Of a stretch of 12,053 bases of DNA, positions 366 to 6,944 are shown piece by piece; the stretch's first letter is position 1; every line of letters begins with the position of its first letter. The DNA comes from a methanogenic archaeon. Lineage in GTDB: Archaea > Thermoplasmatota > Thermoplasmata > Methanomassiliicoccales > Methanomethylophilaceae. The stretch lies in contig CADAGG010000022.1 in the NCBI GenBank assembly GCA_902787415.1, positions 1-12,053 on the forward strand, given 5' to 3'. Below the pieces are notes generated by a model. The model did not search any database and was not told the DNA's origin. It saw only the letters and a program-made list of their open reading frames with translations. The translations under genes were made by a program, and so were the position numbers.

Positions 366-375
366 AAGGAGGAGG
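366..375 (+). promoter_or_regulatory. Ribosome binding site of citrate synthase
   Basis: AAGGAGGAGG ends six bases before the ATG at 382. It decides the start: the in-frame ATG at 352 lies upstream of this site and would add ten unrelated residues, so 382 is preferred. Confidence 0.8.
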
Positions 376-381
376 CTCGTC

Positions 382-1725
382 ATGGCCGATCATGACCAAT
401 ACTACATCGATAAGGCGAAAATCTGTGAGGAGAACGGGCAGATCCCCGCCGAACTCTACACCGAGTACGACGTGAAGAAGGGGCTGCGCGACAAGAACGG
501 CAAGGGAGTCGTCACCGGAATCACCAGGATCTCCAGGCTTGACGGCTACAAGACCGTCGACGGACAGAGGGTCCCCATGGAGGGAGTCCTCGCCTACCGC
601 GGATACGCCATCGAGGACCTGGTCGGGAAGCACACCCCCAGGTGCGGTTTCGAAGAGTCCTCCTATCTCCTCCTGTTCGGAGAGCTCCCCGACTGCGCCG
701 ACCTGCCCCAGTACTAGCAGGCCCTGCGCTCCAACATGGAGCTCCCCAACAACTTCGTGAAGAACGTCATCCTCAGGCAGAACTGCAAGGACATCATGAA
801 CACCATGGCCCGCAGCGTCCTCGAGATGGCCGCCTACGACGAGGACCCCACGGATGTCTCCACCCCTCACGTCCTCAAGCAGTGCATGAAGCTCATCGCC
901 ACGCTCCCGCTCTTCGCGGTGTACGGTTACCACGCCTACAGCCACTACGACTGCAACAGGAGCCTCATCATCCACAGGCCCGACCCCACCCTCTCCATGG
1001 CGGAGAACATCCTCATGATGCTCCGTCCCGACGGGAAGTACACCGCCACCGAGGCCGAGGCCCTCGACAACGCCCTCATCATCCACATGGAGCACGGAGG
1101 AGGCAACAACTCCGCCTTCACCACCCGCGTCATCACCTCCGCCGGTTCCGACACCTACTCCGTCATCGCCGGCGCCCTGCTCTCGCTGAAGGGCCCCAAG
1201 CACGGAGGAGCCAACATCAAGGTTGTGCAGATGATGGATGACATCAAGGCCAACGTCATCGACCCCACCGACGACGGGGAGCTCAGCAACTACCTCTCCA
1301 AGATCCTCAACAAGGAGGCCTTCGACCGCCAGGGACTCATCTACGGAATGGGCCACGCGGTCTACTCCATCTCCGACCCCAGGGCCCAGCAGCTCAAGCA
1401 GTTCGTCTACAAGATGGCCAAGGAGAAGGGATGCGACGCGGAGCTCGACCTCTACGAGAGGGTCGCCAGGCTCGCTCCCGACGTGATCGCCACCAAGAGG
1501 AAGTCCCCCATCAAGGTCTGCGTCAACGTGGATTACTACAGCGGATTCCTCTACAGGATGCTCGGCATTCCCGAAGAGCTCTACACTCCGCTCTTCGCCA
1601 TCGCGAGGGCGAGCGGATGGAGCGCCCACAGGATCGAGGAACTGGTCAGCTCCGGCAAGATCATCCGTCCCGCCTACGTGAGCATCGCCAAAGAGAGGGA
1701 GTACGTCCCTCTCGAGAAGCGCTGA
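382..1725 (+). CDS. Citrate synthase with an in-frame amber (TAG) codon at residue 112
   Basis: Condenses oxaloacetate and acetyl-CoA to citrate, the entry to 2-oxoglutarate and glutamate synthesis. The frame from ATG 382 to TGA 1723-1725 gives 447 residues if TAG at 715-717 is read as an amino acid. Both sides of the TAG are in the same frame and both are clearly citrate synthase: EHGGGNNS, KHGGAN (catalytic His274), GMGHAVYS (His325) and NVDYYSG (Asp384) are intact. The protein resembles clostridial-type enzymes, which suggests old transfer from Firmicutes (inferred from remembered sequences). The TAG falls between two LP motifs (residues 102 and 120 regions) in a variable, often polar or basic position; counting it as one residue keeps the spacing I recall for the family. 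No ribosome binding site precedes the next ATG (736), so reinitiation is unlikely. Pyrrolysine insertion is the leading reading; a sequencing error or a recent nonsense mutation is the alternative. Confidence 0.85.
715..717 (+). other. In-frame TAG, candidate pyrrolysine codon
   Basis: The context is CAG TAC TAG CAG GCC, codon 112 of citrate synthase. A single base change from AAG (Lys) would produce it, and pyrrolysine is a lysine derivative. The frame is uninterrupted for 111 codons before and 335 after. No gene ending inside the window uses TAG as its stop. The pyl genes themselves are not in the window, so the reading as pyrrolysine is inference. Confidence 0.6.
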
Positions 1726-5148: not shown

Positions 5149-5293
5149 CAGGGATTCCCGACTCGGTAATTCGGGCTCTGAGATGATTATGGAAGGCTGT
5201 TTGCAACCACGATATACAAAATACCCAGACAATTCATTCTTGAAAAGACAGTGTTGATTGAAACGTTTTTACCATCATAATATGAAACTATTT

Positions 5294-5306
5294 TGATACA
5301 GTATCA
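5294..5306. promoter_or_regulatory. Palindrome upstream of the kinase/HTH cassette, candidate operator
   Basis: TGATACAGTATCA is a perfect 13-base palindrome (six-base arms around a central A) ending three bases before the TATA box of the kinase gene. The word ATCATAAT also occurs twice, at 5274-5281 and 5303-5310, the second overlapping the palindrome. The second gene of the cassette encodes a probable DNA-binding domain, so autoregulation through this site is a reasonable inference. Confidence 0.45.
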
Positions 5307-5308
5307 TA

Positions 5309-5318
5309 ATTATATAAT
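5309..5318 (+). promoter_or_regulatory. TATA box of the kinase/HTH cassette
   Basis: ATTATATAAT is centred about 26 bases upstream of the ATG at 5338, so the predicted start of transcription coincides with that start codon. This favours a leaderless message beginning at 5338 over the longer frame from 5293, whose ATG would lie upstream of the TATA box. Confidence 0.65.
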
Positions 5319-5337
5319 ATCAATACCATCCGATAGC

Positions 5338-6201
5338 ATGGTCCCGATGGATTTCACCTCTGCTTCGATCGATCCGGTTTTCTACGGAGGTTCGGAAAGA
5401 AAGACCGGTGTCGTCATAGACGGTCAGAGATTCATCATGAAGTTTCAGACGAAATCCGAATTCGGACCCAGATTCAACCACGTCTCCGAACACCTAGGTT
5501 CCGAGATATTCTCTCTGCTGGGGATACCATCACAGCAGACAGAGCTCGGCACGTACAGAGGAGAAGAGGTCGTCCTTTGCAAGAACTTCCTGGGGAAGAA
5601 CGAGCTGTTCGTCCCATTCAACGATGTGGGGGAAAGTTCGCTCGACACCGAGTCCGAACATCATTCGTACACCTACGAAGAGATAGTTCACCTGATCGAT
5701 ATCAACAAGAAACTCACCGATGTAGAAGGAACCAGAGAGAGGTTCTGGGACATCTTCGTGGTCGATGCCCTGCTCGGAAACTTCGATCGCCACGGGGGAA
5801 ACTGGGGATTCATCAAGACGGACAACCAATACCGTCTTTCACCCGTATTCGATAACGGTTCGTGTCTGTTCCCGCAGATGAACTCGGATGAGGAAATGTC
5901 CGGGATCATCGAATCCCCTGAAATGACTGATGACCGGGTATACCGCTTCCCCACCTCACAGATCAAGATGGGCGGGAAGAAGAGCTCGTACCATGAGGTC
6001 ATAGGCAGCCTGCGGTTCCCGGAATGCAATGAAGCTTTGAGAAGAATCGTCCCCCGGGTCGACCTTGACAGGATCTCGGAACTGATCGATGACACCTGCT
6101 TCATCACAGACACCCACAGACGGTTCTACAAGCACATGATAAGGAACAGGTTCGAGAAGATACTCTTGGATTCCTTTAACAGACTGGAGGAGAGTTCATG
6201 A
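5338..6201 (+). CDS. HipA/CtkA-like serine/threonine kinase
   Basis: A 287-residue soluble protein with the HipA-type kinase core. YGGSERKTGVVIDG (16-29) resembles the glycine-rich nucleotide loop of the clostridial/CtkA branch; FIMKF gives Lys35 as the ATP lysine; VVDALLGNFDRHGGNWGF (141-158) is the catalytic loop with Asp150 and Asn155; SPVFDNGSCLFP (168-179) contains the metal-binding Asp172. All expected catalytic residues are present, so it is probably an active kinase. The N-terminal HipA subdomain is absent and may be supplied by the next gene, which overlaps by 4 bases. Known relatives include HipA/HipT, toxins that phosphorylate a tRNA synthetase, and CtkA; the target here is unknown. 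The start at 5338 is chosen from the TATA spacing (5347 is also possible). AGA arginine codons and lower GC than the flanking genes suggest recent acquisition. Confidence 0.82.
   Translation: MVPMDFTSASIDPVFYGGSERKTGVVIDGQRFIMKFQTKSEFGPRFNHVSEHLGSEIFSLLGIPSQQTELGTYRGEEVVLCKNFLGKNELFVPFNDVGESSLDTESEHHSYTYEEIVHLIDINKKLTDVEGTRERFWDIFVVDALLGNFDRHGGNWGFIKTDNQYRLSPVFDNGSCLFPQMNSDEEMSGIIESPEMTDDRVYRFPTSQIKMGGKKSSYHEVIGSLRFPECNEALRRIVPRVDLDRISELIDDTCFITDTHRRFYKHMIRNRFEKILLDSFNRLEESS
6185..6191 (+). promoter_or_regulatory. Ribosome binding site of the HTH gene inside the kinase gene
   Basis: GGAGGAG lies inside the last codons of the kinase gene, six bases before the ATG at 6198. With the ATGA overlap it shows that the second gene is translated from the same message as the kinase. 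Confidence 0.7.
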
Positions 6202-6944
6202 AGGAGAACACCACGTCTGCATACATCTGCCTGAAGGATGATCTGGGTATAGAGTACAGGCTCTGCAGACTTGACTATATCTCGTCGGATGACGGTCATT
6301 ACGCCTACATATTCAGGCCCGACTACTCCGTTATCGATATGCTCTCCCCTCCGCTCTTTCAGGGTATCCCCGGATTGGATTTGGACCTCCGCAAGGAGGA
6401 ATACATCAGAAAGGACATGGTCCCGTGTTTCATATCCGAGAGGACCCCGGGAGAGAACCGCATTGATGTATCCGAGTTGCTGGAAAGCGCGGGGATGGAT
6501 CATCTGAACAGATTGGAATGGCTTATCCGCACGGATCTGCGGTACTTCGGGGATTCGTTCTATGCCATCAGATACACGGAACCGGAGACCGTCGACATGA
6601 GCGGTCTGTCCCTCAGATTCCCCGATGCCGCGATGAGAATCATGAAGAACATCTGTGCCGGAAACACGGTGATTCTGAAGGACCTGAGAATCGATAAGAA
6701 CAACAGGGCCCAGACTTACTTCCTGCTGAAGGAACTGTACCTGGGAAACCGCAAGGCACTGAAGACGATGAGGGATGCGGGCGAGCTTCCCAGATTAGGG
6801 AGAAAAGAGAAGGAAATCCCGGAAAAGGAACTCCGCGAAATGAGGAGACGCATGGAGAACGGACTCATTACGTCTCAGCAGGCGGCCGATGCGCTGGGAA
6901 TCGGCAGAGCCACCTTGTTCAGGAAATTCAAAAAATTAGAATGA
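6198..6944 (+). CDS. HipA-N-like partner protein with C-terminal Hin-type helix-turn-helix
   Basis: A 248-residue protein translated from the kinase message (ATGA overlap). I do not recognise a named family. Residues 65-125 (segment with FISERTPGENRIDVSELLESA, then DLRYFGDSFYAI) faintly resemble the fold part that precedes the kinase core in HipA proteins, where an F-x-x-x-x-PE/GxR pattern and a GxD/DD turn occur. The C-terminus looks like the DNA-binding end of serine invertases: a basic linker (about 185-204, ending in LGRK), then ITSQQAADALGIGRATLFRKF (225-245) as a helix-turn-helix of the Hin/resolvase HTH_7 type. No recombinase catalytic domain is present. A likely role is antitoxin or autorepressor and kinase partner, in place of separate HipB and HipS; this is inference. 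The gene converges on asd with the hairpin 6951-6972 between them. Confidence is high that it is a gene and moderate on its role. Confidence 0.62.
   Translation: MKENTTSAYICLKDDLGIEYRLCRLDYISSDDGHYAYIFRPDYSVIDMLSPPLFQGIPGLDLDLRKEEYIRKDMVPCFISERTPGENRIDVSELLESAGMDHLNRLEWLIRTDLRYFGDSFYAIRYTEPETVDMSGLSLRFPDAAMRIMKNICAGNTVILKDLRIDKNNRAQTYFLLKELYLGNRKALKTMRDAGELPRLGRKEKEIPEKELREMRRRMENGLITSQQAADALGIGRATLFRKFKKLE

Follow-up and report, generated by a model that had tools for sequence, protein, structure and literature searches.

A citrate synthase gene with an in-frame TAG, very probably read as pyrrolysine, in a methanogenic archaeon

Does an in-frame TAG codon end a citrate synthase gene prematurely, or is it translated? 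The question arises in a stretch of 12,053 nucleotides from a methanogenic archaeon of the Methanomethylophilaceae (assembly GCA_902787415.1, contig CADAGG010000022.1; hereafter, the window), in which a sequence-only reading had proposed a citrate synthase gene whose TAG is likely read as pyrrolysine (Pyl), the 22nd amino acid and an N6-acylated lysine. Codon 112 of the frame that runs from ATG 382 to TGA 1723-1725 is TAG (ORF reading), and very probably, judging from the comparisons below, it is read as pyrrolysine. Overall, we are confident that the gene encodes a working citrate synthase, with a pyrrolysine codon that would have arisen by near-neutral drift of a lysine codon.

The citrate synthase frame and its relatives

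Direct reading and profile searches confirmed the anatomy first proposed for the gene, namely a single internal TAG, a TGA end and a good ribosome binding site (Table 1). The citrate synthase profile NF010635 matched residues 8-447 at 660.5 bits (cut-off 426), a full-length match that spans the TAG, and the PF00285 match (370.3 bits) was reported with "1 TAG" inside. H274, H325 and D384, which we take by analogy with other citrate synthases to be the catalytic His/His/Asp set, all lie downstream of the TAG and were invariant in 37 of 37 aligned sequences, in line with the earlier statement that the distal catalytic residues are intact. The 17-residue spacing between two LP motifs, earlier noted for clostridial homologues, also held up: L102 and P103 were invariant and L121 and P122 nearly invariant in the 37 sequences, and the interval was ungapped in the aligned relatives when the TAG was counted as one residue. 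Since the opposite strand of the gene is also open, for 433 amino acids, an open frame by itself is weak evidence here, and the weight therefore rests on homology and on the substitution pattern.

Table 1 Features of the citrate synthase gene in the window, and TAG sites in citrate synthases of the family (codons in window numbering)
Feature	Position	Strand	Basis or remarks
Citrate synthase gene	382..1725	+	448 codons including stop; single internal TAG; TGA end
Predicted pyrrolysine codon, in-frame TAG, codon 112	715..717	+	Direct reading; alignment of relatives
Strong ribosome binding site AAGGAGGAGG	366..375	+	Direct reading; upstream of ATG 382
Met119, start of 329-aa database versions	736..738	+	7 of 14 such sequences viewed
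His274, invariant	1201..1203	+	Alignment of 37 sequences; catalytic role by analogy
His325, invariant	1354..1356	+	Alignment of 37 sequences; catalytic role by analogy
Asp384, invariant	1531..1533	+	Alignment of 37 sequences; catalytic role by analogy
TAG site 112	codon 112		G000, G012; one clade, support 100/99
TAG site 57	codon 57		G093 (L108), G089 (L109), G094 (L110), G101 (L112), G102 (L117); one clade, support 98/93
TAG site 12	codon 12		G086, G087 (L111, L113); sixth codon of match
TAG sites 289 and 370	codons 289 and 370		Two copies in G095 (L116, L114)

The window's own assembly (G000) is fragmented and 83% complete, and we compared its gene with that of G012, which belongs to the same genus and is assembled as a single contig of 1,937,883 bases. 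The G012 citrate synthase carries the same TAG112 and is identical to the window gene at 1320 of 1341 bases, with 20 of the 21 differences at third positions. Downstream of the TAG, all 16 changes were synonymous and none nonsynonymous, a pattern whose probability by chance is about 8e-11, and upstream there were four synonymous changes and one nonsynonymous change. These counts indicate purifying selection on both sides of the TAG. An in-frame TAG that is common to a relative and has conserved coding on either side, one of the marks of a predicted Pyl protein, is thus present here, although the persistence of TAG112 covers little time because the two genomes are closely related.

Database entries tell a similar story. 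Among the 120 matches listed, 14 clusters (P0013-P0026; 64 contigs by the contig column of the table), at 97-100% identity, all encode proteins of 329 amino acids; for one of these clusters, P0013, no source is stated, and the protein of the window itself may be part of it. All seven of the sequences fetched from these clusters begin at Met119, and such 329-residue entries are what gene callers would produce by treating the TAG as a stop. An assembly or sequencing error, which the fragmented and incomplete state of G000 might have favored, is hardly conceivable given these uniformly 329-residue clusters (with the same caveat for P0013) and the same TAG in the single contig of G012; the latter refutes it, unless both genomes share one error.

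Two more distant entries, P0056 and P0061 (82-83% identical; with the above clusters, 329/330 amino acids in length), start at the methionine equivalent to Met119. They suggest a further lineage with an interruption ahead of the same methionine, and may share the TAG at the same site.

Could the TAG nevertheless be a real stop? The gene would then be a recent pseudogene, or would yield a short N-terminal piece and a 329-residue piece restarted at Met119, as the existence of that piece in database entries and of a second citrate synthase in the genus would allow. The second copy in G000 (L085:3367-4579, contig C97) is, however, itself the broken one: it is out of frame and lacks about 107 bases relative to its G012 counterpart, a gap that is either a real loss or an assembly fault. 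The combination that had been named as contrary to readthrough, a second intact citrate synthase with decay in the copy studied here, was accordingly absent from G000, where the TAG-bearing copy is undecayed. Inspection by eye revealed no ribosome site before Met119 comparable to that upstream of ATG 382. We rejected both the pseudogene and the split gene on the absence of decay after the TAG, where every change was synonymous, and regard a genuine stop at this codon as very improbable. In G012, the second citrate synthase is uninterrupted, so its TAG-bearing copy need not be essential.

Pyrrolysine machinery and TAG as a stop codon

Contig C17 of G000 encodes PylS (274 bits), PylB (402), PylC (339) and PylD (212), all above the cut-offs, and we identified pylT by eye upstream of pylS. 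All five genes that had been suggested as a check on the pyrrolysine reading, and that a Pyl protein demands of its host, therefore occur in the same assembly. An identical 39-base pylT core is found once each in G000 and G012 (L153 / L084:9063-9101). Beside the pyl set on C17 lie two mtmB genes, named from their location and their TAG rather than by profile, both of which contain a single in-frame TAG and terminate in TGA, and an mtbB gene on contig C11 (PF09505, 804 bits) carries a TAG at codon 355. These three genes are positive controls for TAG readthrough in G000.

TAG was also rare as a terminator. We sampled 204,388 bases of G000 and 240,000 bases of G012, predicting genes with a simple codon-usage script; TAG ended two of 141 predicted genes in the former, one of which is mtbB and is read through, and none of 158 in the latter. 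The shares of TAG across all frames were 0.195 (G000) and 0.186 (G012), so base composition does not account for the scarcity of TAG stops. Among 16 gene ends checked in the window, 15 were TGA, one was TAA and none was TAG. The avoidance of TAG as terminator that accompanies Pyl proteins was thus seen in the samples of both genomes, and it counts further against a real stop at codon 112. We also looked through these samples for genes in which a single in-frame stop is flanked on both sides by coding-like sequence, and obtained one TAG (mtbB), no TAA and two TGA in G000, and no TAG, one TAA and no TGA in G012; this crude scan alone does not distinguish TAG from the other stops.

In the proposed mechanism, TAG112 would be decoded by tRNA-Pyl(CUA) charged by PylS. 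That the codon is instead read as a standard amino acid, through another suppressor tRNA or a leaky release factor, appears most unlikely: pylT is present together with PylS, and the methyltransferase controls employ the same codon. The tRNA scan bearing on this alternative covered 24 sampled stretches, and none of the 11 tRNAs that ARAGORN found in them had a CUA anticodon, which is a weak argument since ARAGORN also failed to report pylT in either of the two pyl regions. Scans of this kind may therefore overlook a suppressor tRNA in this group. Folding of pylT (z -0.41) predicted no anticodon stem, and the anticodon stem of tRNA-Pyl is termed imperfect by Borrel et al. (PMC3941956).

TAG codons in citrate synthases across the family

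We surveyed 102 genomes of the Methanomethylophilaceae, of which 46 had a match to the window citrate synthase (59 match rows, 51 of them near full length) and 56 had none. Eleven of the 51 near-full-length rows, from ten genomes, hold one TAG each (sites in Table 1), and the matches of the remaining 36 genomes are free of TAG. No internal TAA was found in the 51 rows, and the sole internal TGA, in G008, aligned to residue 442 of 447. That the internal stops of relatives are all TAG, save this one near the end, is again difficult to reconcile with a real stop in the window gene.

In the clade with TAG at site 57, the codon is kept in all five rows, with dS downstream of it reaching about 1.7. 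Across ten pairs, dN/dS ranged from 0.00 to 0.20 before TAG57 and from 0.06 to 0.15 after it, pointing to strong selection on either side. Site 57 is otherwise among the most variable columns of the alignment (98th percentile), and since its TAG persisted over a dS of about 1.7, room is left for selection on pyrrolysine there. All five TAG columns rank in the more variable half of the alignment, three of them with percentiles of 86 or higher.

Four genomes (G086, G087, G095 and G102) have a TAG in each of the citrate synthase matches that were found. G086 and G087 are nearly complete, and the sole match of each has TAG12, downstream of which a later start codon is possible. In G095, both detected copies carry a TAG, at different sites. 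PylS was found above the cut-off in 74 of the 102 genomes and in nine of the ten TAG carriers, the exception being G094 (82% complete), and PylB was found in eight of the ten, with no match in G093 or G094. Conversely, 11 of the 46 citrate synthase carriers had no PylS above the cut-off (seven belong to genera g2 and g6, and the others are G092, G094, G099 and G103, with PylS pieces present in G092 and G099), and only G094 among these 11 has a TAG in the gene.

What occupies codon 112 in the other sequences suggests how the TAG arose. The column (73rd percentile of variability) holds Lys in 27 of the 51 rows, Arg in 14, Ile in three, Met and TAG in two each, and His, Val and Ser in one each. 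Lysine or TAG in relatives had been put forward as support for the pyrrolysine reading, and both were found; the description of the position as often polar can be sharpened to mostly basic. AAG, the commonest codon in the column (22/51), is one base away from TAG. A single base change at this tolerant position could thus have turned AAG into TAG, and in an organism that makes pyrrolysine and rarely ends its genes with TAG, such a change could have been retained, the more so since pyrrolysine is itself a modified lysine. More generally, TAG would be a sense codon for pyrrolysine in this lineage, and citrate synthase would have acquired it by drift at tolerant sites.

We also asked whether citrate synthase gains TAG unusually often. 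Its 51 rows hold five TAG sites, vs two in four control genes: Asd had two TAG in 106 rows (one of them a 23-bit match at 26% identity), HisC one in the best 93 rows of a longer list (down to 225 bits), PylB none in 74 rows, and a DEAD-box helicase none among the matches listed (at least 150 rows). Internal TGA codons occurred in the controls as well, in Asd row G002, PylB row G084 and the distant aminotransferase rows G119 and G027 of the HisC search. A binomial test against codon exposure, with row lengths approximated and shared ancestry ignored, gave 0.0007 for the five sites, 0.004 without the window site and 0.008 with the weak Asd row added. Citrate synthase may thus gain TAG more often than the four control genes; we treat this enrichment as a lead only, because the controls are few and picked by convenience and related rows were counted as independent. 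It is very improbable that evolution in this family repeatedly singled out citrate synthase as a favored Pyl protein (at least five separate sites, one of them clade-wide, and all detected copies in some genomes), which would make the synthesis of citrate, and through it that of glutamate, depend on the methylamine-linked Pyl cassette.

A further idea is that Pyl112 is functional, regulating or modifying the enzyme and so coupling citrate synthesis to the methylamine-linked supply of pyrrolysine. The apparent excess of TAG gains and the retention of TAG57 across large synonymous divergence would fit it, whereas the small, convenience-picked control set, the many genomes whose match lacks a TAG and the scatter of TAG sites among lineages, outside the more conserved columns, speak against it. 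We rejected a regulatory role for Pyl112, as TAG occurs at four further places in family citrate synthases and Pyl proteins other than methyltransferases are already published, and hold a functional Pyl112 to be very improbable. The sequence-only reading had raised the same coupling, of which we saw no sign, since lineages differ in where the TAG lies and over half of the family genomes have no match at all.

Relation to known pyrrolysine proteins

In MtmB, MtbB and MttB, where TAG is decoded as pyrrolysine by the same cassette, the residue takes part in catalysis. The citrate synthase TAG differs from these in being lineage-specific, at a variable column and away from the presumed catalytic residues, and its presence at codon 112 in just two of 51 rows is unlike the family-wide retention expected of a functionally required Pyl residue such as that of MtmB. 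A parallel, by its title, is a study by Heinemann in 2009, in which pyrrolysine reportedly entered tRNA-His guanylyltransferase by neutral evolution, likewise outside the methyltransferases, in a different enzyme. An archaeal genetic code in which all TAG are read as pyrrolysine has reportedly been described by Kivenson et al. in Science in 2025, and such a code would predict that the citrate synthase gene is read through.

Pyrrolysine outside methylamine methyltransferases had at first been considered unusual. This proved not to be so: two reports give 46 amber-containing genes in ISO4-H5 (Li et al. 2016, PMC5011839) and 16 predicted Pyl proteins besides methyltransferases in M. alvus (Borrel 2014, PMC4153887). 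Those predicted Pyl proteins of Methanomassiliicoccales and the citrate synthase are alike in having a TAG in a housekeeping gene with homology on both sides, a pyl cassette and rare TAG stops; what differs here is the occurrence of five TAG sites in one enzyme across a family, together with a substitution test. Our drift account is close to the general account that Borrel et al. offer for M. alvus (PMC4153887). The word "citrate" does not occur in the main texts of PMC4153887 and PMC5011839, as distinct from their supplements, and the 46 amber-containing genes of ISO4-H5 (PMC5011839) may include that of citrate synthase. Judged by titles, and leaving supplements aside, we came across no paper in which citrate synthase is listed among Pyl proteins.

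The citrate synthase TAG thus adds a good new case to a phenomenon already known, with no new mechanism. The Pyl proteome predicted for these methanogens gains a central-metabolism enzyme backed by a substitution test beyond an open frame, and one enzyme is shown to have acquired TAG at five different places within a family, which supports the view that TAG behaves here like any other sense codon. The 329-residue "citrate synthases" held in databases would be half-read genes without their N-terminal quarter. Citrate synthesis in G086, G087, G095 and G102 would require the Pyl cassette even in the absence of methylamines, provided that these genomes have no other citrate synthase and that translation of the G086 and G087 genes does not begin at a later start codon.

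Elsewhere in the window, positions 5293-6944 encode a HipA_C-domain protein and, after it, one that bears a resolvase-type helix-turn-helix. The pair sits between asd and a hisG-like gene.
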